A DNA stretch of 64,000 nt, taken from positions 1 through 64,000 of the IMG/VR virus record IMGVR_UViG_3300044646_001284; one strand, written 5' to 3'. Of the stretch, positions 9,612 to 33,993 are shown in pieces. The position numbers and the translations under genes were made by a program. This stretch comes from a virus. Position 1 is the stretch's first letter. Every line of letters begins with the position of its first letter. Under the pieces are notes generated by a model, which was given only the letters and a program-made list of their open reading frames with translations, was not told the origin of the DNA and made no database searches.

Positions 9612-9677
9612 CCAGTTTGGGAACTGTCTACTAAGTGGTTCCCAAACCTCAAATCCATGCTATCATTACAAAGTAAT
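9612..9677 (+). promoter_or_regulatory. Promoter cassette, ATTAC-class (CobS-like gene)
   Basis: Dyad CAGTT-TGGG-AACTG (9613-9625) lies inside a longer stem TTTGGGAAC (9616-9624)/GTTCCCAAA (9638-9646). An extended -10 TGC-TATCAT (9658-9666) overlaps the palindrome ATTAC-AAA-GTAAT (9665-9677). ATG follows at 9690 without a Shine-Dalgarno. No good -35. Confidence 0.65.
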
Positions 9678-9689
9678 CAACCCAAGACC

Positions 9690-10787
9690 ATGCAGGAACA
9701 ACTTATTAGTTTGCTAAAGGAACAATTTGGTACTGAAATTGATGCTAATGCAGTCAAATCAGTGGCAAATCAAATGAACACTAGTTATGCTACAGCATCG
9801 AAGTATCTGCAAGCATATAAAACTAGTCGTGGTAAATGGAATCTGGAGGCAACAGTAAAAGAACTGGAAGACACCTATAACTCTCCTGCTGCAGAAGGAA
9901 AAGATACCATTTCTTCCCTTTTGTCAGTTGTCCAAAACCTCATTCCTAAGAAAGATGATACCTTCGTCAGCTTTGGTAACTTTAGTGATATTAAAAAAGT
10001 TGTTTCCTCTGGTCTATTCTATCCCACTTTTATTACTGGTCTTTCTGGTAATGGTAAAACCTTTGGTGTAGAGCAAACATGTGCACAGTTGGGTCGTGAA
10101 CTGATTCGTGTCAATATTACTATTGAAACTGATGAGGATGACCTAATTGGTGGTTTTCGTCTTGTCAATGGCGAAACTGTATGGCACAATGGTCCTGTGG
10201 TTGAAGCAATGGAGCGTGGTGCAATTCTTCTTCTTGATGAGATTGACCTTGCTTCCAATAAAATCATGTGTCTTCAGTCAATTTTGGAGGGTAAGGGTGT
10301 CTTCCTGAAGAAAATTGGTAAGCATGTTACCCCTAAACAAGGGTTCAATGTGTTTGCTACTGCTAATACTAAAGGTAAAGGTTCTGATGATGGTAGGTTC
10401 ATTGGCACCAATGTGCTCAATGAGGCATTTCTTGAGAGGTTCCCTATTACCTTTGAGCAAGAGTATCCTACCATTAATGTTGAGACAAAAATCTTGACAA
10501 AAGTAGCAGAATCACTTAGTATTCCTATGGTTGGAGAGCACACTGATTTTATTAAACATCTGTGCACTTGGTCTGAGATTATTCGTAAGACCTTTGCAGA
10601 TGGTGGTATTGATGAAGTCATTTCCACTCGTCGTCTTGTTCACATCATCAAAGCATATTCCATCTTTGGAAAAAAAGATAAGGCAATCAAAGTTTGTCTC
10701 AATCGCTTTGATGATGAAACTAAAACAACTTTTGTTGAATTGTATGACAAGATTGATGCTGAGTTTCAGCAACAGGAAGGGGAGTAA
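9690..10787 (+). CDS. cobS: CobS-like / MoxR-type AAA+ ATPase
   Basis: 365 residues. Walker A is G117-LSGNGKT124, Walker B is LLLD183-E-I-D, and the MoxR-type insert IGGFRLVNGETVWHNGPVVEAMERG lies between them; sensor FATANTKGKGSDDGRF follows. The N-terminal 110 residues are a helical adaptor. ATG 9690 is used; the frame extends upstream to a TTG but that would cross the promoter. Together with the VWA protein it should form an ATP-driven chelatase or remodelling complex. CobS-like genes are near-universal in T4-like cyanophages; the biochemical role in infection is not settled. Confidence 0.85.
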   Translation: MQEQLISLLKEQFGTEIDANAVKSVANQMNTSYATASKYLQAYKTSRGKWNLEATVKELEDTYNSPAAEGKDTISSLLSVVQNLIPKKDDTFVSFGNFSDIKKVVSSGLFYPTFITGLSGNGKTFGVEQTCAQLGRELIRVNITIETDEDDLIGGFRLVNGETVWHNGPVVEAMERGAILLLDEIDLASNKIMCLQSILEGKGVFLKKIGKHVTPKQGFNVFATANTKGKGSDDGRFIGTNVLNEAFLERFPITFEQEYPTINVETKILTKVAESLSIPMVGEHTDFIKHLCTWSEIIRKTFADGGIDEVISTRRLVHIIKAYSIFGKKDKAIKVCLNRFDDETKTTFVELYDKIDAEFQQQEGE

Positions 10788-16694: not shown

Positions 16695-16748
16695 GTGGCA
16701 CAAACCCCTTGACTTTCCTCCCCAAACCTGCTATTATTACTAGGTAAT
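16679..16748 (+). promoter_or_regulatory. Promoter cassette, ATTAC-class (KTSC-like gene)
   Basis: Imperfect dyad TGTGACAGTT/AAGTGGCACA (16679-16702), -35 TTGACT (16709-16714), 17 bp spacer, -10 TATTAT (16732-16737) overlapping the palindrome ATTAC-TAG-GTAAT (16736-16748). ATG at 16762 has no Shine-Dalgarno. Confidence 0.8.
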
Positions 16749-16761
16749 CAATCAAAAGCAC

Positions 16762-16992
16762 ATGTCTGTTACTGCTATTCTTGCTGTTGAATCTTCTGCT
16801 ATTTCTCAAGTTTCCTTTGACTATGATGAAATGCAAGTTGGAGTGACTTATAAGAGCAATCCTGATAAGTCTTATGTGTTCTCTTGCCAAAATCCTATTG
16901 ATGTTGAGGATCAAATTCGTACTGCTGAGAGTGTTGGTAAACTGATCTCACAACTGAAGAACAATAAAGTTCTTGTTCCTATTCAGATGTGA
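16762..16992 (+). CDS. KTSC-like domain protein (76 aa)
   Basis: AVESSAISQVSFDYDEMQVG, then VTYKSNPDKSYVFSC and a helix ending in SVGKLISQL follow the layout of KTSC domains (beta-beta-beta-helix, S..G near the end), seen in phages and bacteria as small nucleic-acid-associated modules. Leader is short and lacks a ribosome site. Family match moderate. Confidence 0.6.
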   Translation: MSVTAILAVESSAISQVSFDYDEMQVGVTYKSNPDKSYVFSCQNPIDVEDQIRTAESVGKLISQLKNNKVLVPIQM

Positions 16993-17723: not shown

Positions 17724-17732
17724 TGGTATAAT
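17724..17732 (+). promoter_or_regulatory. Extended -10 promoter, leaderless geometry
   Basis: TGG-TATAAT (17724-17732) ends six bases before ATG 17739, the same spacing as the CATAC-class cassettes, but here without dyad or palindrome. Confidence 0.5.
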
Positions 17733-17738
17733 GCAGAC

Positions 17739-17870
17739 ATGAAACAATGGCGTTGGACTTTAACTGATCCTACACATTTTGATATGGAATCAGGTCAAAG
17801 AGAAAACCTTCGTGATGCTATGAATGATGTAGCAAATACTGTAGAGTATTTGTTGAACAAACAAACTTAA
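17739..17870 (+). CDS. Small protein (43 aa), probably leaderless
   Basis: ATG 17739 chosen over upstream in-frame starts because of the TATAAT just before it. MKQWRWTLTDPTHFDMESGQ then a helix NLRDAMNDVANTVEYLLN. No domain recognised. Confidence 0.5.
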   Translation: MKQWRWTLTDPTHFDMESGQRENLRDAMNDVANTVEYLLNKQT

Positions 17871-17875
17871 TTTAT

Positions 17876-17948: not shown

Positions 17949-17951
17949 TTT

Positions 17952-18024: not shown

Positions 18025-18085
18025 TTAGATAGTTACACTGTTGTGAAAACTATCTAAACTACGTTGTTTTACGTTATTAATTACT

Positions 18086-19114: not shown

Positions 19115-19182
19115 TGCCACCTGTACAACTGGCACAATAGACCACTAAAACCATTAAGAATGTGCTATAATTACTTTGTAAT
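19115..19182 (+). promoter_or_regulatory. Promoter cassette, ATTAC-class
   Basis: Dyad TGCCA..TGGCA (19115-19134, inner part TGTACAAC), extended -10 TGC-TATAAT (19163-19171) overlapping palindrome ATTAC-TTT-GTAAT (19170-19182). ATG at 19194 without Shine-Dalgarno. Confidence 0.75.
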
Positions 19183-19193
19183 TGATGTGAACC

Positions 19194-19337
19194 ATGTCTA
19201 CTGCATTTCTCGATGACATTCAAATTGATGAGTTTGATTGTATCATTCCAAATGAATCCATGTTTGATCTCTTTGATGATAACTGGGAGTCTGTGACTGA
19301 AAGTGACATGGAAGATTGGATTTTGATTGAGGATTGA
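19194..19337 (+). CDS. Small very acidic protein (47 aa)
   Basis: ATG 19194 to TGA 19335-19337. Rich in Asp/Glu (FLDDIQIDEFD, FDLFDDNWESVTESDMEDWI) with few basic residues; such DNA-mimic-like charge is common in early host-inhibitor proteins, though no homologue is recognised. Expressed from its own cassette. Confidence 0.55.
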   Translation: MSTAFLDDIQIDEFDCIIPNESMFDLFDDNWESVTESDMEDWILIED

Positions 19338-24805: not shown

Positions 24806-24875
24806 TGTGCCAGATGATGAAGTGGCACACAAACCCCCCAAATGCCTTGACAGTATGCTATGATTACTTTGTAAT
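24806..24875 (+). promoter_or_regulatory. Promoter cassette, ATTAC-class
   Basis: Dyad TGTGCCA..TGGCACA (24806-24829), extended -10 TGC-TATGAT (24856-24864) overlapping palindrome ATTAC-TTT-GTAAT (24863-24875). The nearby TTGACA (24847-24852) is too close to the -10 to act as its -35. ATG 24887 lacks a Shine-Dalgarno. Confidence 0.7.
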
Positions 24876-24886
24876 CAGTAAAACAC

Positions 24887-25297
24887 ATGGGAACTCGCAG
24901 TTTCATTACAATCAAACACAAAGACAATACTTATTCTGGTGTATATTGTCACTGGGATGGTAGTGTTGAGCACAATGGTAAGATTCTCAAAGAAGATTAT
25001 CAAGCACGCAGTAAGGTTGTTGATCTTATTGATGGTGGTGATATGTCATCTCTAAAGACAAATACTACTTGGGAATCTACTTTCAAGCAAGATGCTTATA
25101 CTAATACTCGTGAAGAACAACCTCTTTACTATTATGAAAGGGGAGACACTGATAAAGATTCAATCTATCCTAAACACTTCAAAAATCATCAGCAAATGTA
25201 TAAGTATGCTAAAAATTGTGGATGTGAGTACATCTACACATTTGATGATACTGTAGGTGAAGATCAACCTTGGTGGTCTTTTTGTGGAGTAAATTGA
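24887..25297 (+). CDS. Conserved phage protein of MGTRS family (136 aa)
   Basis: MGTRSFITIKHKDNTYSGVY then CHWDGSVEHNGKIL: a small-protein family widespread in phages, usually expressed early, with no settled function. A Trp/Cys C-terminus (GEDQPWWSFCGVN) is typical. First gene of a unit driven by the cassette just upstream. Confidence 0.7.
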   Translation: MGTRSFITIKHKDNTYSGVYCHWDGSVEHNGKILKEDYQARSKVVDLIDGGDMSSLKTNTTWESTFKQDAYTNTREEQPLYYYERGDTDKDSIYPKHFKNHQQMYKYAKNCGCEYIYTFDDTVGEDQPWWSFCGVN

Positions 25298-25500: not shown

Positions 25501-25859
25501 TGAGTAAAAAACTAAATTGGTGGGAGTATTGGATTGGTCACTGTTGGATGACAGGATGGCAAAACATTCGTGGGTCATTTAGAATCTGGAGTGACCTAAT
25601 GACAGGAAACTATAAAGATTATGCCCTGATGTGGTATGATGAACCCTATGAAGAATGTTATAGTTGGTTCTGGCAATATCTTGGTGATGATGATACTTTA
25701 CCCAAAGAGTTTCTTGAACATTTGATGCAGATGGCAGAAGATGTGAGAACAGGTAAAGAAAAAGTGATTCCATTAGATGAAGATTTCTTTGATAGATTGA
25801 AAGACCTTACTGATGGTATTGAAGTGAACTTAAATGAGGAATTAAAGGACAATGGATGA
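25500..25859 (+). CDS. Trp-rich hypothetical protein (119 aa)
   Basis: Ten or so Trp residues (LNWWEYWIGHCWMTGWQNIR; ECYSWFWQYLGDDD), amphipathic rather than transmembrane. TAATG start overlap at 25500. Could associate with membranes or pigment proteins, but nothing proves it. Confidence 0.55.
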   Translation: MSKKLNWWEYWIGHCWMTGWQNIRGSFRIWSDLMTGNYKDYALMWYDEPYEECYSWFWQYLGDDDTLPKEFLEHLMQMAEDVRTGKEKVIPLDEDFFDRLKDLTDGIEVNLNEELKDNG

Positions 25860-26040
25860 AGATTTTGTACGTTTGAACCTTGATGAGTTGGATGCACTGA
25901 AGACTGCCCTACAGTTGCTGTCAAAGAAAGAGCAGAAGATTATGGAAGGTAGTGGTAAAGTATCCCTCAGTGCCCTGTATAACAAACTGCAAAGCACTGT
26001 AGAGGACATCGAGAGGACACTTGTACAAGTGGCACAGTAA
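25852..26040 (+). CDS. Small helical protein (62 aa)
   Basis: AAAGGA precedes ATG 25852. LNLDELDALKTALQLLSKKE and a second helix LYNKLQSTVEDIERTLVQV. The 3' end overlaps the dyad of the next cassette. Confidence 0.55.
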   Translation: MDEDFVRLNLDELDALKTALQLLSKKEQKIMEGSGKVSLSALYNKLQSTVEDIERTLVQVAQ

Positions 26041-26080
26041 ATCCCCACAGTGCCCTTTTGTGTGCTATCATACTTGTATG
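26018..26080 (+). promoter_or_regulatory. Promoter cassette, CATAC-class, leaderless
   Basis: Palindrome CACTTGTACAAGTG (26018-26031), GGCAC/GTGCC stem followed by CTTTT, extended -10 TGC-TATCAT (26063-26071), palindrome CATAC-TT-GTATG (26069-26080) whose last ATG (26078) starts the gene. Confidence 0.8.
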
Positions 26081-26374
26081 AATGAATCACAGATGACTTA
26101 CTCCTTCACTACTTCTAATCTTTCCAAGATTAAACCTAAACTTCGCACAAGTGGCAGGGTTTCTGGTAACTTTGGTAAGAACAAAGTAAAAGCAGGTTCT
26201 CCTATTTCTGGTCTTGGAGTTACTAATGCAAAAGTAGTCAAAGTTACAACTCAAGATGAGTATTTGAACAAAATGTATTATGTTCTGGATAATGCTGCTG
26301 ACAGGCAGATTCAACAGTTTGCTTACAATGAAATTCGTAAAATTTTGATTCAAAGAGGTATGTGGAATTTCTAA
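26078..26374 (+). CDS. Small basic protein, leaderless (98 aa)
   Basis: ATG 26078 lies six bases after the -10, so the mRNA should start at or next to the AUG. Basic, Ser/Gly-rich first half (LSKIKPKLRTSGRVSGNFGK) and a helical second half (ADRQIQQFAYNEIRKILIQR). Converges with the HNH gene on the other strand, overlapping by 4 bp. Confidence 0.6.
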   Translation: MNESQMTYSFTTSNLSKIKPKLRTSGRVSGNFGKNKVKAGSPISGLGVTNAKVVKVTTQDEYLNKMYYVLDNAADRQIQQFAYNEIRKILIQRGMWNF

Positions 26375-26823
26375 TTTTTTGAATTTCTTTTATTTCTTTG
26401 TTGTTGACTTCTTGTTGCCCATCTAACATTTCCTGGTTCATAATGACCATTGTTGTCTATTCTGTCTAATGAATAATCTGATGATGGTCTTTCTCCCAAA
26501 TTATTGATAATGTATTCTTTGAATGATTCATAGGTATCCCATTTTTCATGTAATTTAATACCTCTTCCACCATAATCTTTGTAATTTATTTTATTAGGAT
26601 TATTGCATCTTTGATTTATTTGATGATAACAGTCATACAAATAACTTTTCCAATCTCCATGTTTTGTATTTTTACTTTTCCTTGACTGATTGGCACAATC
26701 ATTACATTTATTTTGCTTTCTTAAACAATCTCTTCTAATAATAAATTGATTTCCACAATCACAAATTACATTGTCATAGTATTTGTTTCCAATTCTATGA
26801 CTAAAATCTAAAACTTTTAACAT
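26371..26823 (-). CDS. HNH-type homing endonuclease-like protein (150 aa)
   Basis: The only clear minus-strand gene. Two zinc pairs, C21-D-C23 and C40-ND-C43, then CNNPNKINYKDYGGRGIKLH and YSLDRIDNNGHYEPGNVRWA (117-136), the beta-beta-alpha signature of phage HNH nucleases with D120, H127 and N132 as candidate active residues. Very AT-rich with a Lys/Asn-rich end, unlike its neighbours, so recently acquired. Lacks any obvious DNA-binding extension beyond NKRNSKN. Likely a free-standing homing endonuclease. Confidence 0.8.
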   Translation of the reverse strand: MLKVLDFSHRIGNKYYDNVICDCGNQFIIRRDCLRKQNKCNDCANQSRKSKNTKHGDWKSYLYDCYHQINQRCNNPNKINYKDYGGRGIKLHEKWDTYESFKEYIINNLGERPSSDYSLDRIDNNGHYEPGNVRWATRSQQQRNKRNSKN

Positions 26824-26882
26824 TTAACACAACAGGTAACTGTTTTATTTATCAAAGAGGACAGTGGGTATAAAGTTATCTT

Positions 26883-26951
26883 GTGACACTTGTGCAACTG
26901 TCCACTATGCCTTGACTTTTGACCTTAAATCTGTTATCATTACAAAGTAAT
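26883..26951 (+). promoter_or_regulatory. Promoter cassette, ATTAC-class
   Basis: Dyad GTGACACTT..AACTGTCCAC (26883-26905), -35 TTGACT (26912-26917), 17 bp spacer, -10 TATCAT (26935-26940) overlapping palindrome ATTAC-AAA-GTAAT (26939-26951). ATG 26962 has no Shine-Dalgarno. Confidence 0.8.
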
Positions 26952-26961
26952 CTAAAAACAA

Positions 26962-27087
26962 ATGCCTACTACTTACAATTTCACTGGTGATGCTATTACC
27001 TTCCTTGGTCTGGTTGGTGTCATTAGCACTTCCATTATTGTTATTACTGTCTTTCGTCGTTATTTCAATAGTCCCTACATCAAATGA
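26962..27087 (+). CDS. Small membrane protein (41 aa)
   Basis: ITFLGLVGVISTSIIVITVF (12-31) is a clear transmembrane helix with RRY following, so the C-terminus should face the cytoplasm. Overlaps the next ATG. Confidence 0.6.
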   Translation: MPTTYNFTGDAITFLGLVGVISTSIIVITVFRRYFNSPYIK

Positions 27088-27293
27088 AAAGCATCCAAGA
27101 GTACGAAAAAGACCTCAAAGAAGCAAAGAAGAGGTATGATAAACTGACTAAACAGATTAGGAATTGTAAGTCTGAATATCAGTATGAAATCATGTGTGAA
27201 GACCTTGAAGATTGTAGGCAAGATGTATTTGAACTGCAACTTATCATCAAAGACTTACGACAACAGAAAAAACTTGCTGAAATTGATGTATAG
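27084..27293 (+). CDS. Coiled-coil protein (69 aa)
   Basis: Almost entirely charged helix (YEKDLKEAKKRYDKLTKQIR; DLEDCRQDVFELQLIIKDLR). Probably dimerises. Co-transcribed with the small membrane protein, perhaps as a partner. Confidence 0.6.
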   Translation: MKSIQEYEKDLKEAKKRYDKLTKQIRNCKSEYQYEIMCEDLEDCRQDVFELQLIIKDLRQQKKLAEIDV

Positions 27294-27309
27294 CATGTGA
27301 CACTTGTAA

Positions 27310-27344
27310 AACTGGCACTGTAAATGAGCACAGTGCCAGTTTTT
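27310..27344 (+). terminator. Intrinsic terminator within a promoter cassette
   Basis: AACTGGCACTGT (27310-27321) pairs perfectly over 12 bp with ACAGTGCCAGTT (27330-27341), followed by TTT. The usual dyad (27297-27318) overlaps its left arm, showing that dyads in this family can become true terminators. Confidence 0.85.
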
Positions 27345-27363
27345 ATGCTATCATGTATTCATG
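27345..27363 (+). promoter_or_regulatory. Extended -10 fused to start codon
   Basis: TGC-TATCAT (27346-27354) ends six bases before ATG 27361; the palindrome has the variant form CATG-TATT-CATG (27352-27363). Leaderless geometry preserved although the palindrome sequence differs. Confidence 0.65.
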
Positions 27364-27546
27364 ACAAACAAACAAATGAACTTTCAAGATTATTCTGTTA
27401 GCAAACCCAGTAATGAATGGTTTGAGGATAGTTGTAGAGTGTGGGCAGAATATTATAGTTTCTTGCTTGGACTTAGCATCTGGGATGATGCAGAAAAAGC
27501 ATGGTTTGAGGATCAATTTAATTTCAACAAAATCTACGATGTCTAA
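27361..27546 (+). CDS. Small protein, leaderless (61 aa)
   Basis: TNKQMNFQDYSVSKPSNEWF then Trp-rich RVWAEYYSFLLGLSIWDDAE. A second in-frame ATG occurs at codon 6, a pattern repeated in other leaderless genes. Function unknown. Confidence 0.55.
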   Translation: MTNKQMNFQDYSVSKPSNEWFEDSCRVWAEYYSFLLGLSIWDDAEKAWFEDQFNFNKIYDV

Positions 27547-27673
27547 TAAAGTTTGGAAAGGTGTCTGCCTGTGCGTTATCCTGCTTGTGGGAGATCCTTT
27601 CATTAACTTGCCACAGGTTAATGCTATGCCTGTGACACAAGTTGAAGTGGCACATAACACTCCCAAAACCTAA
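27539..27673 (+). CDS. Possible secreted mini-protein (44 aa)
   Basis: MSNKVWKGVCLCVILLVGDP is a signal-peptide-like N-terminus (positive start, hydrophobic core), with a plausible cleavage near Asn-Ala-Met. The C-terminal 15 residues are encoded by cassette DNA, so the real gene might be shorter or absent. Confidence 0.4.
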   Translation: MSNKVWKGVCLCVILLVGDPFINLPQVNAMPVTQVEVAHNTPKT

Positions 27674-27699
27674 GTTTATGTGCTATGATGATTACATCA
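27631..27699 (+). promoter_or_regulatory. Divergent promoter cassette
   Basis: Dyad TGTGACACAAG..AAGTGGCACA (27631-27654), extended -10 TGC-TATGAT (27681-27689), palindrome TGATG-ATTA-CATCA (27686-27699) in place of the usual types. Leader has GAGGA (27706-27710) before ATG 27714, unlike most cassettes. Confidence 0.6.
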
Positions 27700-27713
27700 A
27701 CAGTTGAGGAAAC

Positions 27714-27854
27714 ATGATTGACACTTGTAGATTGCATGATGATTTAGAGGGTTTTGCATCCTATTTGGGTGTTGATTATGATGATTATTATCAACTCATT
27801 TATCATCTTCCTGATGAGGATGAGTCTGATTTAGAAGTAGAACTCACTGCTTGA
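27714..27854 (+). CDS. Small protein, paralogue of 10977-11117 (46 aa)
   Basis: FASYLGVDYDDYYQLIYHLP shares FAxYLGVDYxDY with the earlier gene. Acidic C-terminus (DEDESDLEVELTA). Own promoter cassette and a Shine-Dalgarno. Function unknown. Confidence 0.6.
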   Translation: MIDTCRLHDDLEGFASYLGVDYDDYYQLIYHLPDEDESDLEVELTA

Positions 27855-27915
27855 TTTATAGGAATGTGTTTGCCTTAAAGTTACACAACTTTGTTCACTT
27901 ACCACTTTCTTTATT

Positions 27916-28086
27916 ATGTCTATCAATCTGATGTCTCTTGCTGCTGATCTTGCTGATACCAATTTCGCTGCTTCTCAACTCATTATGAGTCTGCAAAGTG
28001 CACAAAATGGTGCTGAACTTGTTGAAGCACTTGATGCTTATGACAGCACAGTTATTGATAGTGTGACTGAACCTGTTGCTGCTTGA
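27916..28086 (+). CDS. Small helical protein, paralogue of 33031-33210 (56 aa)
   Basis: AADLADTNFAASQLIMSLQS then AQNGAELVEALDAYDSTV; the gene at 33031-33210 has AQTGDDLLTVLDAVVDTQ in the same place. Lacks a clear Shine-Dalgarno. Ends just before a terminator. Confidence 0.55.
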   Translation: MSINLMSLAADLADTNFAASQLIMSLQSAQNGAELVEALDAYDSTVIDSVTEPVAA

Positions 28087-28094
28087 TAATAAAT

Positions 28095-28120
28095 AGGGGC
28101 ACAATGCCCCTTTCCTTTTC
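28095..28120 (+). terminator. Intrinsic terminator
   Basis: AGGGGCA (28095-28101) pairs with TGCCCCT (28105-28111), three-base loop, then TTCCTTTTC. Ends the unit of the paralogue gene. Confidence 0.75.
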
Positions 28121-28137
28121 TATACACTTCTAAGACA

Positions 28138-28260
28138 ATGACTCCCAACTGGATACACAATTCAGGCAAGAAAAAGAATCCCAGAGGTGTGTCCAAAGGG
28201 AAGATTAAAGCACGTAAACAAGTATTGCAATCAATAAAGGCAAAGTATAAAGTATCATGA
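28138..28260 (+). CDS. Small very basic protein (40 aa)
   Basis: Twelve or so Lys/Arg in 40 residues (SGKKKNPRGVSKGKIKARKQ), suited to RNA or DNA binding. ATGA overlap with the next gene. Confidence 0.55.
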   Translation: MTPNWIHNSGKKKNPRGVSKGKIKARKQVLQSIKAKYKVS

Positions 28261-28466
28261 TCCACAAGCATACTCTACAAACAGCAGCAGCATTTGATAG
28301 AATTGATGATGCTTTGCTTGGTAAAACTGATGATAGTTTGAGTGAACTAATTGAAGATCTTGAGCATTTATTGTATAGGGCAAAAGAGATTTATAACACA
28401 GCAGCAGCATTTAGTGATGGATCTGATTATGAAATAGTGACACAATGTGACCTTCCTAAAGTATAG
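28257..28466 (+). CDS. Small acidic helical protein (69 aa)
   Basis: TAAAFDRIDDALLGKTDDSL and LSELIEDLEHLLYRAKEIYN: acidic helices, in contrast to the basic partner encoded just upstream. Function unknown. Confidence 0.55.
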   Translation: MIHKHTLQTAAAFDRIDDALLGKTDDSLSELIEDLEHLLYRAKEIYNTAAAFSDGSDYEIVTQCDLPKV

Positions 28467-28470
28467 TGAT

Positions 28471-28538
28471 GTGCCAGTTGTGGAACTGGTCGCTATAATC
28501 CCCAAAACTCCTGAAACTGTGCTATCATACACAGTATG
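28471..28538 (+). promoter_or_regulatory. Promoter cassette, CATAC-class, leaderless
   Basis: Dyad CCAGTT-GTGG-AACTGG (28474-28489), extended -10 TGTGC-TATCAT (ends 28528), palindrome CATAC-ACA-GTATG (28526-28538). ATG 28536 is seven bases after the -10. Confidence 0.75.
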
Positions 28539-28952
28539 AACAAACAAACCACTCTCATGACTGAAAAAGTTATTGATAAGATTGAAGAAATGTGTCAAGT
28601 TCTTCGTACTAACTACCAGTCTTATTCTATTGCAAGGCACAGAGATTACATTGCCAAAGGTGATAGTGTAGAATGGCATCAACAGCAGATTGATAAACTC
28701 TGTGAAGGTGAAGGTGTTGATGAATACACTTACACCAAAGGCAGAAAGTATGCCAAGATTATTCATGTTACCAATGACAGTAAGCAACGCAGTGCTCATG
28801 CATTTGTGAACCTGAATACTGGTGATGTATACAAATCTGCAACTTGGTCTGCACCTGCATTGAATGGTGTAAGGTATAATCTTCTTGATGACAAATCTCG
28901 TGAAGAGATGTATCAACGTGCTGATTGGGCAGGTTCTTATTTGTATAAATGA
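28536..28952 (+). CDS. Conserved phage protein, leaderless (138 aa)
   Basis: Helical N-terminus, then YAKIIHVTNDSKQRSAHAFV and NLNTGDVYKSATWSAPALNG-x-RYNLL, a conserved beta core found in many phages (family of unknown function). Expressed from its own cassette; a second in-frame ATG at codon 8. Coupled to the next gene. Confidence 0.65.
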   Translation: MNKQTTLMTEKVIDKIEEMCQVLRTNYQSYSIARHRDYIAKGDSVEWHQQQIDKLCEGEGVDEYTYTKGRKYAKIIHVTNDSKQRSAHAFVNLNTGDVYKSATWSAPALNGVRYNLLDDKSREEMYQRADWAGSYLYK

Positions 28953-29119
28953 ATTATCTTTGTTTGGTTGATGGTGTTGTTGAGTATGGCAGCACCAGTT
29001 TGAGTGACTTTGTTCACTATCAGTTGGTGTATGCTGAAGAACACAAGTATGCTAATGTAGAGTATCTTACTCTCACTGATAAAGAGTATGCTAACCTGTT
29101 TCCTGTTGAAGAAGAATGA
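28949..29119 (+). CDS. Small acidic protein (56 aa)
   Basis: NYLCLVDGVVEYGSTSLSDF then HYQLVYAEEHKYANVEYLTL. Mixed alpha-beta, acidic end. ATGA overlaps at both ends. Confidence 0.5.
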   Translation: MNYLCLVDGVVEYGSTSLSDFVHYQLVYAEEHKYANVEYLTLTDKEYANLFPVEEE

Positions 29120-29235
29120 AATCTGCACTGTTTTGTATCACTTGCCTTGCAATCTTGAACATTGTTAATGCTTTTGCTGACCAACAAATGAAACATGATA
29201 CACAAAAAATGATTCACCAAAGTTCTACAATGTGA
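29116..29235 (+). CDS. Secreted or periplasmic mini-protein (39 aa)
   Basis: MKSALFCITCLAILNIVNAF then ADQQMK: a good signal peptide with A-x-A type cleavage (AFA/DQ at 21/22), leaving only 18 residues. Its stop lies in the dyad of the next cassette. Confidence 0.5.
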   Translation: MKSALFCITCLAILNIVNAFADQQMKHDTQKMIHQSSTM

Positions 29236-29298
29236 CAGTTGTAGAACTGGTCGCTATTTTTACCAAAACCCCTGAAAACGTGCTACCATACATGTATG
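29231..29298 (+). promoter_or_regulatory. Promoter cassette, CATAC-class, leaderless
   Basis: Dyad TGACAGTT-GTAG-AACTGG (29232-29250), -10 TACCAT (29284-29289) with TGC before it, palindrome CATAC-AT-GTATG (29287-29298). Gene ATG is 29296. Confidence 0.75.
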
Positions 29299-29454
29299 AT
29301 AAATCAAAACGACATGAAAGTGTTTAAGATTGTTGATGTTTGGTCTAATCGAACTCACACAGTTAATGCACAGAATCAAGAAATTGCAATTAGGAAAGTT
29401 GCAGATCAAGTTAATCACTTTGGTCTGCTAGTTGTGAGCATGAATCTACTCTGA
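29296..29454 (+). CDS. Small protein, leaderless (52 aa)
   Basis: Second in-frame ATG at codon 7 (MINQNDMKVFKIVDVW). NAQNQEIAIRKVADQVNHFG suggests a beta-alpha fold like small phage proteins that handle host targets, but no family is recognised. Confidence 0.5.
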   Translation: MINQNDMKVFKIVDVWSNRTHTVNAQNQEIAIRKVADQVNHFGLLVVSMNLL

Positions 29455-29521
29455 GTGACACTTGTAGAACTGTCCACTTATGCTTGACTTTTTGGTGAAT
29501 CTATGGTATCATACATGTATG
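29455..29521 (+). promoter_or_regulatory. Promoter cassette, CATAC-class, leaderless
   Basis: Dyad GTGACACTT-GTAG-AACTGTCCAC (29455-29477), -35 TTGACT (29484-29489), 17 bp spacer, -10 TATCAT (29507-29512), palindrome CATAC-AT-GTATG (29510-29521). ATG 29519. Confidence 0.85.
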
Positions 29522-29668
29522 AAAGATAAGTTTATGACTGATTCCACTCTTGATCTCTTCTGTGATCATGCAGATACACAAATGGCAGAAGAGTATGCTA
29601 TGGAACTTGAAGCAAAAGCAGCAGAACTAGAAATAACTGTTGACTATTATATTGCTGAGTTCCTTTGA
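29519..29668 (+). CDS. Small acidic protein, leaderless (49 aa)
   Basis: MKDKFMTDSTLDLFCDHADT then a long acidic helix EEYAMELEAKAAELEITVDY. Second ATG at codon 6. Heads the unit with the nuclease gene. Confidence 0.55.
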   Translation: MKDKFMTDSTLDLFCDHADTQMAEEYAMELEAKAAELEITVDYYIAEFL

Positions 29669-29685
29669 TTATTAACAACAACATT

Positions 29686-30360
29686 ATGCAAACCCAAACT
29701 AAGTTTAATCACCTCAATCTGCCTATTCTTGCAGATATTCCCACTGAAACTGTGGATGGTTCACGTCGTTATGTTGTGAATGGTAAACTGTTGCCTTCTG
29801 TCACTACAGTTACTTCCTATCAGAATCGCAAATCTATTGCAGAGTGGAGGGAACGTGTAGGTGTTGATGTAGCAAATCAAATTAGTCAATTTGCATCAAA
29901 CAATGGCACTAAGTTCCACAAAATTGTGGAAGATTATGTCAACAATCTTGATGTAGATTATGATACTGAGAAGTATGAAGTTGCACTGAAATTGTTCAAT
30001 CAATTCAAGGCACTTCTTGATGATGTGAATAACATTCACTATCAGGAATGTGCCCTGTATTCTGAACAACTTGGAATTGCAGGTCGTGTAGATTGTATTG
30101 CAGAATACAATGGTAAACTGTCTGTAATTGACTTCAAGAGTTCTTCTAAACCAAAGTATGAAAATCAGATTCAAAACTATTTTGTTCAGGAGACTGGTTA
30201 TGCTATGATGTATGAGGAAATGACTGGTCAAAAAGTAGAACAAATTGTGACCTTGATTTCTTGTCATTCAGGTGAAACGCAAGTTTTTATTAAGAACCCT
30301 GATGATTATGTTGATACTCTCAAGCAATACATTCAGGAATACAATAACAAAGGTAACTGA
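29686..30360 (+). CDS. PD-(D/E)XK exonuclease (MGME1/RecB-like)
   Basis: 224 residues with the RecB-type nuclease core: E121 in QECALYSEQL, D136 in AGRVDCIAEY, D149-F-K151 in LSVIDFKSSS, then the Q/Y helix (QIQNYFVQETGYAMMYEEM). This is the MGME1/Cas4-like exonuclease family found in T4-like cyanophages, likely acting on DNA ends in recombination or host DNA breakdown. ATG 29686 is chosen; an in-frame TTG overlaps the previous stop. Confidence 0.8.
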   Translation: MQTQTKFNHLNLPILADIPTETVDGSRRYVVNGKLLPSVTTVTSYQNRKSIAEWRERVGVDVANQISQFASNNGTKFHKIVEDYVNNLDVDYDTEKYEVALKLFNQFKALLDDVNNIHYQECALYSEQLGIAGRVDCIAEYNGKLSVIDFKSSSKPKYENQIQNYFVQETGYAMMYEEMTGQKVEQIVTLISCHSGETQVFIKNPDDYVDTLKQYIQEYNNKGN

Positions 30361-30363
30361 GTT

Positions 30364-30687
30364 ATGATTTATGAAGTGGAAGTTCGTCCAGGTCCTAACA
30401 CTGAGTTCTTTCAATACTACACAGAAACTGTAGAGGCACCTACCTCACATGATGCTGTTGCAAGAGTTCAACGTGCAAATCCTGGTTGTGTTGTGAGAAC
30501 AACTAACTCATGGAGTGAGTATAGTGATAATGAATCTGAATCTAGTTCATCATCAGAAATTAGTGGAGGTTTAGTACTCATTGGTCTTGTAGTGATGTTG
30601 TTAATCTATGCCTGGAAGTGGATTCTACTTATTGGTGCAATTTCATTGGTAATTTGGTTCATCATTCAATTTGTAAATGATAACTAA
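30364..30687 (+). CDS. Small membrane protein (107 aa)
   Basis: Soluble N-terminal domain (VEVRPGPNTEFFQYYTETVE), a Ser/Glu-rich linker (SDNESESSSSSEISGG) and two adjacent hydrophobic segments (GLVLIGLVVMLLIYAWKW; ILLIGAISLVIWFIIQFV). Topology suggests the soluble part in the cytoplasm or periplasm at the inner membrane. Function unknown. Confidence 0.6.
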   Translation: MIYEVEVRPGPNTEFFQYYTETVEAPTSHDAVARVQRANPGCVVRTTNSWSEYSDNESESSSSSEISGGLVLIGLVVMLLIYAWKWILLIGAISLVIWFIIQFVNDN

Positions 30688-30698
30688 ATAACTTTTTT

Positions 30699-30770
30699 GC
30701 TAGTGTAGCACAGTGGTAGTGCAATGGTTTTGTAAACCATAGGTCGCAAGTTCAAATCTTGTCACTAGCT
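30699..30770 (+). tRNA. tRNA-Thr(UGU)
   Basis: Acceptor GCTAGTG/CACTAGC, D-arm GCAC/GTGC, anticodon stem ATGGT/ACCAT with loop TTTGTAA (anticodon TGT), T-arm GCAAG-TTCAAAT-CTTGT, discriminator T. Isolated from the other tRNAs, between a membrane protein gene and a cassette. Confidence 0.92.
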
Positions 30771-30806
30771 TTTATTCCACAAATGTGTGGCATTTGGATG
30801 ATACCA

Positions 30807-30874
30807 TGTGCCAGTTGTAGAACTGTCACACGAAATGAGCACATCCCCCAAAAGTGTGCTATCATACATGTATG
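30807..30874 (+). promoter_or_regulatory. Promoter cassette, CATAC-class, leaderless
   Basis: Dyad TGTGCCAGTT-GTAG-AACTGTCACA (30807-30830). A second inverted repeat AGCACA (30838-30843)/TGTGCT (30855-30860) ends in the extended -10 TGC-TATCAT (30857-30865). Palindrome CATAC-AT-GTATG (30863-30874); ATG 30872. Confidence 0.8.
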
Positions 30875-31108
30875 AAAAATCAAATTGCATCTGAAATCTT
30901 CCACTATCACACTAACTGGAAGGAAGGTAAAGTGAATCAAATGTGGATTCAAGAAATTGAAGAATCCCATGATGTTTATAAGTATGTTGCTATTGCTTTC
31001 AATCCTGAGAAGAATGTGAGTATGGTGATGTCCAATCCTCGTGGATATTATGATACTCTGCTGTGGGTGCGCAAGTGGTGCGGAACTTTCTCTATTCTCC
31101 CTGTTTGA
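30872..31108 (+). CDS. Small protein, leaderless (78 aa)
   Basis: EIFHYHTNWKEGKVNQMWIQ then KYVAIAFNPEKNVSMVMSNP and a Trp-containing end. Globular beta-rich; no family recognised. Start fixed by the cassette, although an earlier in-frame codon exists. Confidence 0.55.
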   Translation: MKNQIASEIFHYHTNWKEGKVNQMWIQEIEESHDVYKYVAIAFNPEKNVSMVMSNPRGYYDTLLWVRKWCGTFSILPV

Positions 31109-31116
31109 TTATATCA

Positions 31117-31184
31117 TGTGCCAGTTGTAGAACTGGTCGCTATATTTACCGAAACCACTGAAACTGTGCTACCATACTAGTATG
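31117..31184 (+). promoter_or_regulatory. Promoter cassette, CATAC-class, leaderless
   Basis: Dyad CCAGTT-GTAG-AACTGG (31121-31136), -10 TACCAT (31170-31175) with TGC before, palindrome CATAC-TA-GTATG (31173-31184). ATG 31182. Confidence 0.75.
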
Positions 31185-31457
31185 GAAAAACAAATGACTG
31201 ACTTCCCCACAATTAAATCTAAAGATGGCACAATGGTAGTGTCATTTTATCCTGTCAAAACACCTTTTGGTGATATATCTGAAACCTGGACACTTAAGGT
31301 GCTTGAGTGGAAAGGAATTGAGACAATTTCCAAGAAGTTCATTAACAAAGTTGAGAAGAAAGTTCAACTGCGTGAGTATGCTGGTTTTGGTTACATTGTG
31401 ACCAAAGATAACAGCAACCTTCCGCAACTTGGTAATCCTATGGCAGGTGCTTGCTGA
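31182..31457 (+). CDS. Small protein, leaderless (91 aa)
   Basis: Begins MEKQMTDFPTIKSKDGTMVV with a second ATG at codon 5, then basic KKFINKVEKKVQLREYAGFG. Beta-rich. First gene of a three-gene unit. Confidence 0.55.
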   Translation: MEKQMTDFPTIKSKDGTMVVSFYPVKTPFGDISETWTLKVLEWKGIETISKKFINKVEKKVQLREYAGFGYIVTKDNSNLPQLGNPMAGAC

Positions 31458-31651
31458 TGAATGAAACTGTGCAACTGAAACTGAATAGAATTATGAGTGA
31501 TCTTGAGCAGGCAATCTATGAATCAGAGACTGCAATCAATGATCCTGAGAAAGGTTATCCCTATGCTGCTGGGTATAGTAGAGCAGCAATGAAATCTGTT
31601 TTAGATGATGTTCAACTCCTTAAATCTTACCTTGAAAATGAATCAGACTGA
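31457..31651 (+). CDS. Small helical protein (64 aa)
   Basis: ATG 31457 overlaps the upstream TGA. QLKLNRIMSDLEQAIYESET and YSRAAMKSVLDDVQLLKSYL: helical hairpin. Function unknown. Confidence 0.55.
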   Translation: MNETVQLKLNRIMSDLEQAIYESETAINDPEKGYPYAAGYSRAAMKSVLDDVQLLKSYLENESD

Positions 31652-31823
31652 TGTGATGGATGCTATTAACAAAGCATTTGCAAAGTTATCCTCAAATCAG
31701 ATGATTTATGATTTCTGGTTATCTGAACTGTATTATCCTAGTGGTGATTTTAACTTGGATAATTGGAATGAACATAGTCTCAAACTCATGCAAAAAGATG
31801 TATCATCAATGATCGACGAGTGA
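31638..31823 (+). CDS. Small protein (61 aa)
   Basis: ATG 31638 lies inside the end of the previous gene; an earlier in-frame start is less likely. MDAINKAFAKLSSNQMIYDF and LYYPSGDFNLDNWNEHSLKL. Function unknown. Confidence 0.5.
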   Translation: MNQTDVMDAINKAFAKLSSNQMIYDFWLSELYYPSGDFNLDNWNEHSLKLMQKDVSSMIDE

Positions 31824-31832
31824 GTGATACCA

Positions 31833-31900
31833 TGTGCCACTTGTACTAGTGTCACAATACACTTGACAAATCCCTAAAAACGTGCTATCATACAGGTATG
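31833..31900 (+). promoter_or_regulatory. Promoter cassette, CATAC-class, leaderless
   Basis: Dyad GTGCCACT-TGTAC-TAGTGTCAC (31834-31855), -35 TTGACA (31863-31868), 17 bp spacer, -10 TATCAT (31886-31891), palindrome CATAC-AG-GTATG (31889-31900). ATG 31898. The fullest promoter of the set. Confidence 0.88.
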
Positions 31901-32371
31901 GAAAAAAACAAAACATTCTCAAAACTAATTTACAACATCTCAAACCCTAAGTGTGTTGTATTTGATCTAGATGCAACTTTGTGTCATCATGGTGATCAAT
32001 CAGGGTTTGAAGAATGTGATCAATTCCCTGCTATTGATGCAGTTGTAGATGTTGCAAAGCACTGCAAATCTATGGGATTTGATCTAGTCATTGCTACTGC
32101 CAGACCTGATACATTTGCAGATGGTACAGCATATTGGTTGCAGGAACATTTGCCTGAGTTTGATGCACTCTACATGAAAAATGCAGATGATGATGCAACT
32201 GGTTCCACTGCTAAAGGTCATCAACTGATGGATATTCTTCGCTTTTGGGATGACATTCAGTTCTGGGTTGATGATAGTCCTTTCAATGCAAAAGTCATTG
32301 AGGATCATGCTGTAACCTGTATTCGTCCTTCCCACAATGATGCTTTCTGGGCAGATTATGGTGACCAATGA
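31898..32371 (+). CDS. HAD-superfamily phosphatase, leaderless (157 aa)
   Basis: Motif I D23-L-D25-A-T (VVFDLDATLC), motif II Thr in LVIATARPD (62-71), motif III/IV region with K106 (TAKGHQL) and WVDDSP (123-128). This matches the 3'-phosphatase domain of T4 polynucleotide kinase in motif order, without a kinase part, so a nucleotide or RNA-end phosphatase is likely. Predicted cytoplasmic, early. Confidence 0.75.
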   Translation: MEKNKTFSKLIYNISNPKCVVFDLDATLCHHGDQSGFEECDQFPAIDAVVDVAKHCKSMGFDLVIATARPDTFADGTAYWLQEHLPEFDALYMKNADDDATGSTAKGHQLMDILRFWDDIQFWVDDSPFNAKVIEDHAVTCIRPSHNDAFWADYGDQ

Positions 32372-32446
32372 TCCTAAAATGCTAGGCAATGTTCTGGCAT
32401 TTATGATTATCCAAATGCACAATGTTGTCTGCCTCCTTTATACTGA

Positions 32447-32514
32447 TGTGCCAGTTGTAGAACCGTCACACGAAATGAGCACAGACCCCAAAAATGTGCT
32501 ACCATACTAGTATG
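32447..32514 (+). promoter_or_regulatory. Promoter cassette, CATAC-class, leaderless
   Basis: Dyad TGTGCCAGTT-GTAG-AACCGTCACA (32447-32470), second repeat AGCACA/TGTGCT flanking GACCCCAAAAA, -10 TACCAT (32500-32505), palindrome CATAC-TA-GTATG (32503-32514). ATG 32512. Confidence 0.78.
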
Positions 32515-32988
32515 GAAAAACAAAACAACACTCAAACCAACCAAATGATTGCTCTTCAAACTAACATTCAACCTGTTGCCCTTACTGTTGACAACTATCT
32601 GACTGAGGTTAGTGATACTCTGCGCAGTAAGATTGAAGAATTGATGGAAGATTCTTTCCATCTTGATGATATGCTGGACTTCATCAATGAGCATGGCGAT
32701 GATAATTTCATCAACTATTATGATGATTATGTTCGCTTTGGTGAGGACAATTCCTATGCTGCTGTTGATGCTTTCATTGAAGAGTTTGGTATTCATGAAG
32801 TAGAAAGGTTTGAGGATGCCTATCATGGAGAATGGGAAACTCCTGAGATCTTTGCTGAAGTCTACTGTGATGACATGGGATATAAAGTTCCTGAGTTTGT
32901 TGTGGTAGATTGGGAAGCAACCTGGGAACAAAATCTCCAATATAATTATGCTTTCAACAATGGATTCGTGTTCATCAAGAACTACTGA
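32512..32988 (+). CDS. ArdA-like antirestriction protein, leaderless
   Basis: 159 residues, strongly acidic. The C-terminal half carries ArdA hallmarks: FEDAYHGEWETPEIFAEVYC (about 103-122) and VVVDWEATWEQNLQYNYAFN (131-150). ArdA proteins mimic bent DNA and block type I restriction enzymes, so an early, leaderless transcript would make sense for protecting incoming DNA. The N-terminal third is more divergent. Confidence 0.72.
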   Translation: MEKQNNTQTNQMIALQTNIQPVALTVDNYLTEVSDTLRSKIEELMEDSFHLDDMLDFINEHGDDNFINYYDDYVRFGEDNSYAAVDAFIEEFGIHEVERFEDAYHGEWETPEIFAEVYCDDMGYKVPEFVVVDWEATWEQNLQYNYAFNNGFVFIKNY

Positions 32989-33030
32989 ATCACACTCTTT
33001 CACTAACACTTTTTCACTCCAATTAACATC

Positions 33031-33210
33031 ATGACTGCTACTCTGAACCTGCCTAAAACTGCTGCTATGGTGATGCTTGCAAAGGCACAAACTGGTGATG
33101 ATCTTCTCACTGTACTGGATGCAGTTGTAGATACTCAAGAGGATCAAGTTCCTGTGCCTGATGATGCCTACATCATGGAGAATGATTATGATGATACCAT
33201 TGATTTCTGA
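33031..33210 (+). CDS. Small protein, paralogue of 27916-28086 (59 aa)
   Basis: MLAKAQTGDDLLTVLDAVVD aligns with the earlier gene; the C-terminus (PVPDDAYIMENDYDDTIDF) is acidic and unique. No Shine-Dalgarno seen. Function unknown. Confidence 0.55.
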   Translation: MTATLNLPKTAAMVMLAKAQTGDDLLTVLDAVVDTQEDQVPVPDDAYIMENDYDDTIDF

Positions 33211-33225
33211 TCCTGGGTGATACCA

Positions 33226-33293
33226 TGTGCCACTAATTAAAGTGGCACAAACATTTACCAAAACCCCTGAATCCGTGCTATCATACATGTATG
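33226..33293 (+). promoter_or_regulatory. Promoter cassette, CATAC-class, leaderless
   Basis: Perfect 9 bp dyad TGTGCCACT/AGTGGCACA (33226-33249) with loop AATTAA, -10 TGC-TATCAT (33276-33284), palindrome CATAC-AT-GTATG (33282-33293). ATG 33291. The dyad sequence differs from other copies in both arms at once, so pairing is preserved. Confidence 0.82.
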
Positions 33294-33500
33294 ATGAATG
33301 AGAAAAGCAACCAAATGCAAGTTTATGTGGTGATCGGTGGGCATGATTATGAAGGAGAATCTTTTGATTCTCTGAAAATGTTTGATTGCAAGTCTGCTGC
33401 TGAAGCATACAAGAATCACCTGGAAGTTGAGTGGAGTTATGATTATGTTCTGATGCGTGAGCAAGATGTAATCATGGAGTCTGCTATTGCTGCTGCCTAA
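33291..33500 (+). CDS. Small phage protein, leaderless (69 aa)
   Basis: QVYVVIGGHDYEGESFDSLK then FDCKSAAEAYKNHLEVEW: a beta-hairpin plus helix (the GGHDYEGE-x-F-x-S motif is common in phage proteins of unknown function). Two ATGs in tandem at the start. Confidence 0.6.
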   Translation: MMNEKSNQMQVYVVIGGHDYEGESFDSLKMFDCKSAAEAYKNHLEVEWSYDYVLMREQDVIMESAIAAA

Positions 33501-33509
33501 ATGATACCA

Positions 33510-33577
33510 TGTGCCACTTGTAGAACTGGCACAAACATTTACCGAAAACCCTGAATCCGTGCTATCATACATGTATG
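33510..33577 (+). promoter_or_regulatory. Promoter cassette, CATAC-class, leaderless
   Basis: Dyad TGTGCCACTT-GTAG-AACTGGCACA (33510-33533), linker ACATTTACC nearly identical to the previous cassette, -10 TGC-TATCAT (33560-33568), palindrome CATAC-AT-GTATG (33566-33577). ATG 33575. Confidence 0.82.
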
Positions 33578-33868
33578 ATGAATGAAACCAAAGCAATGAC
33601 CCAGCAAACTTATAATGGTTGGGCAAATTATGAAACCTGGAATGTATCTCTGTGGATGCAGAATAATGCCTTCCTGTATAACACTGCTGTTGCATGTGTA
33701 GAGTATCACAATGTTAATGAAGAATCACCTTACATCAAGTTCATTAGGTGCATGGACAATTGTGATAAGATTGCCACTGCTGATGATGTTAGGTGGGATT
33801 CTTTGGCAGTAGATCATGATGAGATCAATGCAATGATGTTTGAGATTCATGAAGGAGGAGAAGTTTGA
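33575..33868 (+). CDS. Conserved phage protein, leaderless (97 aa)
   Basis: TYNGWANYETWNVSLWMQNN is the signature of a small protein family found in many phages and plasmids (N-Y-E-T-W-N). Acidic, function unknown. Heads a short operon of four genes reaching the DnaA-box region. Confidence 0.68.
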   Translation: MMNETKAMTQQTYNGWANYETWNVSLWMQNNAFLYNTAVACVEYHNVNEESPYIKFIRCMDNCDKIATADDVRWDSLAVDHDEINAMMFEIHEGGEV

Positions 33869-33993
33869 TGACCATTAAATACACGTTCGACATTCAAACC
33901 AAACAACCTGTGTATGCTGTCTTCAGGCAAGATGTTTGTATTCTCCTGACCACATCTATCACCACTGCTATCAATAAGATCCAACAAAAATGA
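33868..33993 (+). CDS. Small protein (41 aa)
   Basis: ATG 33868 overlaps the upstream TGA, with GGAGGAG upstream. TIKYTFDIQTKQPVYAVFRQ and a helix. Overlaps the next ATG. Confidence 0.5.
   Translation: MTIKYTFDIQTKQPVYAVFRQDVCILLTTSITTAINKIQQK

Follow-up and report, generated by a model that had tools for sequence, protein, structure and literature searches.

Putative leaderless promoters with an embedded start codon

Small genes in a clade of uncultured T4-like cyanophages from freshwater appear to be expressed from promoters that carry the start codon within them. About ten such genes per genome, probably early ones judging by gene content, would be served by host-sigma70-type extended -10 promoters (TGCTATCAT), many of which also have a -35 element (TTGA or TTGC) at 17 bp. 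Transcription is predicted to start at the A of the ATG, or one or two bases from it at most, and the mRNAs would therefore be leaderless and translated from a 5'-terminal AUG. The ATG is the right arm of a DNA dyad in the initiation region, CATAC-N2/3-GTATG, spanning -9 to +3. An earlier note on this DNA had proposed that such leaderless promoters recur here and that their start codon is part of a palindrome; comparative sequence data support the proposal well, and we consider leaderless initiation at the motif ATG, give or take a base or two, to be the best reading, with a probability of roughly 0.8.

The window (the whole stretch analysed, 64,000 nucleotides) is part of a 107.8-kb (107,814-base) record of a T4-like, Kyanoviridae-like cyanophage. 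Of the 467 records matched by its baseplate wedge initiator, nearly all are from cyanophages, with 33-38% identity in the top rows, and its small genes match Synechococcus phages. An uncultured relative (a record of 180.8 kb) has at least seven cassettes and also carries two Photo_RC genes, which identify its host as a cyanobacterium. The window contains the following putative leaderless promoters:

17724..17741, + strand: core TGG-TATAAT-GCAGAC-ATG, without the dyad; ORF 17739-17870 (43 aa), FAM9, conserved in relatives
26063..26080, + strand: core TGC-TATCAT-ACTTGT-ATG, dyad CATAC-TT-GTATG; ORF 26078-26374 (98 aa), FAM6, 20 copies in relatives
27346..27363, + strand: core TGC-TATCAT-GTATTC-ATG, without the ACNNGT dyad, directly 3' of a strong hairpin (~27308-27346); ORF 27361-27546 (61 aa), FAM7
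28520..28538, + strand: core TGC-TATCAT-ACACAGT-ATG, 7-nt gap, dyad CATAC-ACA-GTATG; ORF 28536-28952 (138 aa, DUF7717)
29281..29298, + strand: core TGC-TACCAT-ACATGT-ATG; ORF 29296-29454 (52 aa)
29484..29521, + strand: promoter with -35 TTGACT (29484-29489), 17-bp spacer, TGG-TATCAT and ACATGT-ATG; ORF 29519-29668 (49 aa), FAM1, 36 copies
30857..30874, + strand: core TGC-TATCAT-ACATGT-ATG; ORF 30872-31108 (78 aa), FAM2, 30 copies
31167..31184, + strand: core TGC-TACCAT-ACTAGT-ATG; ORF 31182-31457 (91 aa, phrog_500)
31863..31900, + strand: promoter with consensus -35 TTGACA (31863-31868), 17-bp spacer, TGC-TATCAT and ACAGGT-ATG; ORF 31898-32371 (157 aa, HAD phosphatase)
32497..32514, + strand: core TGC-TACCAT-ACTAGT-ATG; ORF 32512-32988 (158 aa, anti-restriction protein phrog_36653, ArdA-like)
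33276..33293, + strand: core TGC-TATCAT-ACATGT-ATG; ORF 33291-33500 (69 aa)
33560..33577, + strand: core TGC-TATCAT-ACATGT-ATG; ORF 33575-33868 (97 aa, DUF7249)

All ten starts said to carry the dyad do so, at the right coordinates. Nine are exact + strand copies of TAYCATAC-N2-GTATG (ATG 26078, 29296, 29519, 30872, 31182, 31898, 32512, 33291 and 33575) and the tenth has N3 (ATG 28536); ATG 27361 and ATG 17739 keep the 6-nt gap with other bases, again as described. The TGC said to precede the -10 is found in most copies, the exceptions being 29519 and 17739, which have TGG. In 11 of the 12 copies the -10 occupies -12 to -7 relative to A(+1), the position expected of leaderless genes. Chance can be ruled out as the origin of the motif by shuffling and by the gap histogram: 19 matches with up to two mismatches were found on both strands, against 3.2 ± 2.0 (maximum 9) in shuffles, none of 100 reaching 19, and in the whole record an ATG that begins an ORF of 40 aa or more follows TGNTANNNT at a gap of 6 in 12 cases, other gaps in the range 0-18 nt accounting for 0-5 cases each.

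A good -35 at 17 bp is present in the window only at 29519 and 31898; the other copies depend on the extended -10, and a generic sigma70 scan of 25800-34000 did not rise above chance. The reported lack of a Shine-Dalgarno sequence holds as an observation (0 of 12 genes have AGGA, GGAG or GAGG in -17 to -4) but says little about leaderlessness, because such a sequence is present in just 30 of the record's 122 other genes (background 12/129). Few cyanobacterial genes have a Shine-Dalgarno sequence, and leaderless mRNAs are reported to be abundant in cyanobacteria (PMC5397173).

Spacing and start codons across relatives

The cassette was found on 103 IMG/VR stretches, which were retrieved by a pattern containing the motif, a bias that scans within the relatives lessen without removing. 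It is used by 21 cyanophage protein families, many copies being orthologues and thus not independent. The relatives have kept much the same gene order, apart from local swaps and insertions. A logo of 88 non-redundant copies shows TTG(A/C) at -35, a 17-bp spacer, TGC-TATCAT at -15 to -7, T at -1 and ATG at +1, the extended -10 being the most conserved part. When the relatives were scanned for TGNTAYCAT only, 222 of the 407 sites had the first ATG of an ORF at a distance of exactly 6 nt, the next commonest gap being 21 nt (19 sites); within the leaderless class it lies 6 nt past the -10 at 163 of 168 sites.

These regularities bear on the idea that the motif is mainly a protein-binding operator, with the true transcription start further upstream and an ordinary leader. 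The dyad is indeed conserved beyond promoter needs (267 of 285 sites are symmetric), hairpins and A/T-rich stretches lie upstream, and the -35 is weak in most window copies. Nevertheless, the extended -10 is the most conserved element and sits at the canonical -12 to -7 relative to the ATG, TTG(A/C) occurs ~17 bp 5' of the -10 in 96 of 168 distinct copies, and a sister promoter class (below) has the same -10 and dyad with the ATG moved. We therefore regard an upstream start as very improbable.

Reading from the motif ATG gives an ORF of 40 aa or longer in 183 of 186 distinct closed copies; the two other frames do so in 5/193 and 2/193. Several families, FAM2 and HAD (MEKNKTFSKLIYN...) among them, lack any further ATG close to the start, and codons 2-8 already show a third-position excess (48% vs 26/26). 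Frame, families with a single candidate ATG and codon-position bias all argue that the motif ATG is the true start codon. The beginning of these genes is also distinctive in composition: codons 2-11 contain 9% G versus 21% inside the genes, the first 45 nt have little structure (MFE -1.4 versus -6.0 kcal/mol), and unrelated families have the same first 15 nt of coding sequence.

A second in-frame ATG follows within 20 codons in 193 of 282 copies, so that dual or downstream initiation is possible at those copies. Taken further, transcription could begin at or near the first ATG while ribosomes begin at the second, the segment between the two being a non-coding A/C-rich leader as in the sister promoters. 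The inter-ATG segment does resemble sister-class leaders, and the orthologue of gene 31182 in the cultured phage S-SZBM1, which is leadered with dyad ATTAC-AAA-GTAAT, begins near the second ATG. However, the frame from the first ATG is open in nearly all copies (183/186) across the 21 families, several families lack a second one, and codons 2-8 show the third-position excess; we think general use of the second ATG unlikely.

Leadered sister promoters

A second promoter class, with the dyad ATTAC-N3-GTAAT, occurs in the same genomes, in the IMG/VR relatives and in three of the six cultured Kyanoviridae sampled. It has the same arrangement of -10 and dyad with the ATG displaced downstream: at most of 162 sites, 21-28 nt separate the -10 from the first ATG, with a peak at 22-24. 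The window has five examples:

9661..9692, + strand: TATCAT overlapping dyad ATTACAAAGTAAT (9665-9677); ATG 9690, 17-nt leader, porphyrin-biosynthesis-type AAA ATPase (phrog_249)
16732..16764, + strand: TATTAT and ATTACTAGGTAAT; ATG 16762, 18-nt leader
19166..19196, + strand: TATAAT and ATTACTTTGTAAT; probable ATG 19194
24859..24889, + strand: TATGAT and ATTACTTTGTAAT; ATG 24887, 16-nt leader
26912..26964, + strand: -35 TTGACT, TATCAT and ATTACAAAGTAAT; ATG 26962, 15-nt leader

In the six cultured Kyanoviridae sampled, the gaps do not peak at 6 nt, and blastn with the 12-kb region and with 305-bp and 39-bp cassette queries found no related cassette in cultured phages. A 'Translation initiation factor 2' of S-SRM01, seemingly tied to leaderless translation, proved to be a misannotated NUMOD3-repeat protein.

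Role of the dyads

The earlier note had tied the palindrome to leaderless promoters. It is not specific to them and can be separated from leaderlessness, because the leadered sisters also have a dyad in the initiation region, with other symmetric arms. Such a dyad probably acts as an operator-like element in the DNA, most likely bound by a dimeric regulator, and in this clade the right arm of the dyad probably came to serve as the start codon. CATAC-N2/3-GTATG would be a variant of the older ATTAC-N3-GTAAT, an element of leadered promoters in the same phages and in cultured relatives; as its arm turned into ATG, the former A/C-rich leader would have turned into the first codons (e.g. MKNQTT).

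Another account, to which we give limited credence, is that the dyad lacks an independent function and simply arises where a -10 that ends in CAT, a favoured discriminator and ATG meet, which would be compatible with leaderlessness. Within the leaderless class the arms do not vary and hence show no covariation, and copies with other discriminators (GTATTC, GCAGAC) are known. Against this, the dyad of the sister class, at almost the same position, has other arms but is just as symmetric; symmetric variants exist, and mixed-arm versions (CA/TC, GA/TG) are scarce in IMG/VR and mostly without a gene start. A GA/TC arm variant does not prove compensatory change and supports it little, because only a handful of its IMG/VR sites fall in this phage group. 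The initiation dyad is not expected to act as an RNA hairpin, as its left arm would be untranscribed with +1 where the -10 sets it. On a host origin of the sister dyad, a scan of genome_contigs was informative only in that the matches listed, which came from scattered phyla at about the chance rate, showed no cyanobacterial concentration. A search for a repressor identified none, the MazE-like match of ORF 15049-15552 being weak and below the cut-off. We found no description of an initiation-region dyad in cyanophage promoters in the literature.

Several cassettes are preceded by another dyad:

30808..30829, unstranded: upstream dyad GTGCCAGTTGTAGAACTGTCAC of the 30872 cassette, position conserved at ~-54 in relatives
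31834..31855, unstranded: upstream dyad GTGCCACTTGTACTAGTGTCAC of the 31898 cassette
33227..33248, unstranded: upstream dyad GTGCCACTAATTAAAGTGGCAC of the 33291 cassette
33511..33532, unstranded: upstream dyad GTGCCACTTGTAGAACTGGCAC of the 33575 cassette

Such a dyad lies at ~-54 in 34 of 54 non-redundant copies, versus 3 in shuffles. It is not an ordinary terminator, being mostly without a T-run; hairpin-plus-T-like forms occur upstream of 27361 and 26078 only.

Relation to known systems and implications

The arrangement is new as a variant, yet its novelty is narrower than first claimed, because leaderless phage mRNAs and repeated promoter cassettes of T4-like phages are already known. Lambda cI and Thermus phage phiYS40 provide phage mRNAs that likewise begin at AUG. 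Those are single genes or other temporal classes, whereas the cyanophage has a dyad-embedded cassette repeated about ten times. Bacterial leaderless genes with a TANNNT '-10 motif' have the -10 ~12 bp before the start codon and no leader (Zheng 2011, PMC3160421), a signature validated experimentally in Deinococcus (PMC12340547). The cyanophage genes share this spacing and the predicted lack of a leader but differ in their repeated cassette, extended -10, ATG-containing dyad and shared first codons.

As summarized in PMC4503421, T4-like phages have PeSLs, cassettes that combine a promoter with a terminator (Arbiol 2010; Comeau 2014) and are credited with modular gene shuffling. On that summary, PeSLs are repeated intergenic units of early sigma70 promoter and stem-loop among small genes, and the cyanophage cassette, with its repeated promoter and upstream dyad, may be a unit of this kind. 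That unrelated cyanophage genes have both the cassette and N-terminal codons in common is a possible likeness. The cassette differs from PeSLs, as summarized there, in containing the start codon and, apparently, in its largely conserved gene order and in an upstream dyad that keeps a set distance from the promoter and for the most part has no T-run. We know of no report of leaderlessness as a PeSL trait. Halovirus HF2 also has intergenic repeats carrying promoters (PMC8707807); these are archaeal TATA-box promoters, unlike the cyanophage cassette, and in the main text of that paper the word 'leaderless' is absent and we found no start-codon dyad described.

A bolder reading, which we consider improbable, is that one mobile promoter-plus-start-codon element made most of the early regulon leaderless, and that a dimer on the initiation dyad switches these genes off. 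If so, a phage- or host-encoded dimer would cover the -10 and the start codon together, and leaderless early mRNAs would be translated preferentially (e.g. by 70S ribosomes), displacing leadered host mRNAs. On the preferred reading of leaderless initiation at the motif ATG, gene starts would be corrected for many small phage proteins, which gain N-terminal extensions such as MKNQTT. Between one sister group and the other, orthologous phage genes would have passed from short-leadered to leaderless mRNAs, and a single genome would hold both promoter classes. Matched promoter pairs could therefore be used to test under what conditions, and for what reasons, cyanobacteria favour leaderless translation.

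Organization of the cassette

The -10 of each cassette runs into CATAC-N2/3-GTATG and the final ATG is the predicted gene start, as the earlier note had proposed for 26066-33577; sequence reading and pattern searches confirmed this family. Pattern searches recovered nine exact N2 copies on the plus strand plus a single N3 copy (28536), and each ends in an ATG originally claimed as a start. Two further genes were reported to have the 6-nt gap but different bases, and this is confirmed:

Variant cassettes in the window
ATG 27361: TATCAT-GTATTC-ATG, 6-nt gap
ATG 17739: TATAAT-GCAGAC-ATG, 6-nt gap

Allowing up to two mismatches, the motif has 19 matches on both strands vs 3.2 expected. A scan of all 107,814 bases of the record found an extended -10 exactly 6 nt upstream of an ORF ATG 12 times, whereas each of the other gap lengths between 0 and 18 nt came up 0-5 times. 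Only the 29519 and 31898 copies of the window have a good -35, and a generic sigma70 scan of the window's cassette region gave no excess above chance.

A pattern search found TGCTAYCATACNNGTATG on 103 stretches of IMG/VR contigs. In 183 of 186 closed copies (duplicates removed), an ORF of 40 aa or more begins at the motif ATG; the other two frames give one in 5/193 and 2/193. When the same loci were rescanned requiring TGNTAYCAT alone, and neither dyad nor ATG, an ORF ATG lay exactly 6 nt downstream at 222 of 407 sites, with a discriminator that was mostly ACNNGT. The logo of 88 non-redundant copies reads TTG(A/C) at -35, a 17-bp spacer, TGC-TATCAT, ACATGT and ATG; the basis of the promoter reading is therefore that particular positions are conserved between copies whose spacers diverge. 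Five stretches from other kinds of phages (L021, L036, L037, L065, L096) carry single TGCTAYCATACNNGTATG sites whose ATG begins an ORF; these may be leaderless promoters of independent origin or may have arisen by chance.

Further upstream, at about -54, GTGCCA-N10-TGGCAC-like dyads accompany 34 of the 54 non-redundant copies, vs 3 in shuffles. Their hairpins fold moderately. Most have no T-run, and the dyads may therefore serve as operators or weak terminators. The arrangement at 27361 differs: a very stable hairpin at 27308-27350 (-26 kcal/mol for 27285-27350) is followed by TTTTT leading straight into the extended -10, apparently a terminator fused to the promoter.

Probable translation from the first ATG

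Genes that carry the cassette belong to 33 protein families, of which 21 are found in cyanophages, and unrelated families have N-termini in common (e.g. MKNQT, MKNQK, MEKQM), so the cassette reaches into coding sequence. Translation from the second in-frame ATG is a serious rival to use of the first, given that such a codon lies at most 20 codons downstream in 193 of 282 copies; however, almost every copy preserves the frame from the first ATG, a second ATG is lacking in HAD, FAM2 and other families, and third positions are where codons 2-8 differ most often (48%, 26%, 26%; the compared pairs are not independent), with a weaker bias than in the gene body (64%, 21%, 15%). The opening codons are rich in A and C (47% and 23%, with 9% G) and have little structure, and weak structure around the start has been reported for non-SD genes, cyanobacteria included (PMC5397173). 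The missing Shine-Dalgarno noted earlier is uninformative, because just 30 of the 122 other genes of the record carry one.

A leadered sister class and the initiation dyad

Five promoters of the window share the upstream parts, and their -10 overlaps a different dyad, with a leader of 15-18 nt where the start is clear:

Leadered sister promoters (ATTAC-N3-GTAAT overlapping the -10)
9661-9692
16732-16764
19166-19196
24859-24889
26912-26964

This class is common in IMG/VR, where the first ATG lies 21-28 nt past the -10 at most of 162 sites (peak 22-24), compared with 6 nt at 163 of 168 leaderless sites, and it occurs in three of six sampled cultured Kyanoviridae (Syn1, DSL-LC02, S-SZBM1). Flanks are symmetric at 267 of 285 promoter-proximal TAC-N2-4-GTA sites, mainly CA/TG or AT/AT; mixed arms (CA/TC on 11 IMG/VR stretches, GA/TG on 5) mostly lack a gene start. 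Dyad symmetry near +1 is thus common to both classes, the arms are not, and, judging from these sequences, only in this uncultured clade is the start codon one dyad arm.

If +1 lies at the position set by the -10, the left arm stays outside the transcript and the dyad would therefore act as DNA, its natural reading being an operator for a putative dimeric regulator. Towards its C-terminus, ORF 15049-15552 has a weak, below-cut-off match to MazE-like proteins (E 0.009); it may encode a dimeric DNA-binding regulator, like the annotated AbrB/MazE proteins of DSL-LC03 and S-SRM01. An S-SRM01 gene (MW015081; L118:2516-3274) annotated as 'translation initiation factor 2' was discarded as wrongly annotated; it encodes a NUMOD3-repeat protein.

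Carrier virus, precedents and origin

The baseplate wedge initiator (33-38% identity among the best rows) and small genes of the window match T4-like cyanophages (Kyanoviridae), and this uncultured virus also has genes for a porphyrin-biosynthesis-type AAA protein and a ferredoxin-like protein. The record that holds the window is partial and showed no photosystem gene; in a 180.8-kb IMG/VR relative, which has seven or more cassettes, there are two genes for Photo_RC proteins, and the host of this relative is therefore a cyanobacterium. The probably early gene array also contains:

26371-26823, minus strand in an otherwise plus-strand region: HNH endonuclease gene (phrog_374)
29680-30357: PD-(D/E)XK exonuclease (phrog_298), directly 3' of leaderless gene 29519, without its own cassette
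30699-30770: tRNA-Thr(TGT), just 5' of the 30872 cassette

Five further tRNAs lie at 11297 and 17378-18025.

Leaderless bacterial genes have been defined by the same computational signature (PMC3160421), with experiments on such genes in Deinococcus (PMC12340547), and the AR9 paper terms phage transcripts often leaderless. Cyanobacteria reportedly have few SD genes and are rich in leaderless mRNAs (PMC5397173), so that the host should tolerate leaderless phage mRNAs. T4-like phages are reported to carry PeSLs, repeated cassettes of a promoter and a stem-loop (as cited in PMC4503421). Literature searches on cyanophages and leaderless mRNAs yielded no description of a cassette with a dyad-embedded start codon, nor was one found of an ATTAC-N3-GTAAT initiation-region dyad at leadered promoters. 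The cassette is best seen as a new form of known kinds of element, and comparative support for its predicted leaderlessness is strong.

Among cultured phages, the S-SZBM1 orthologue of gene 31182, identified by alignment and annotated to start at 6831, has a leadered promoter with the dyad ATTAC-AAA-GTAAT, and the S-CAM9 orthologues of 31182 and 33575 follow ordinary leaders. Six cultured Kyanoviridae genomes showed no 6-nt gap peak, and cassette queries against cultured phages found nothing related. From this distribution we infer the direction of change: leaderlessness was probably derived in the uncultured clade, the old leader having been absorbed into the protein.
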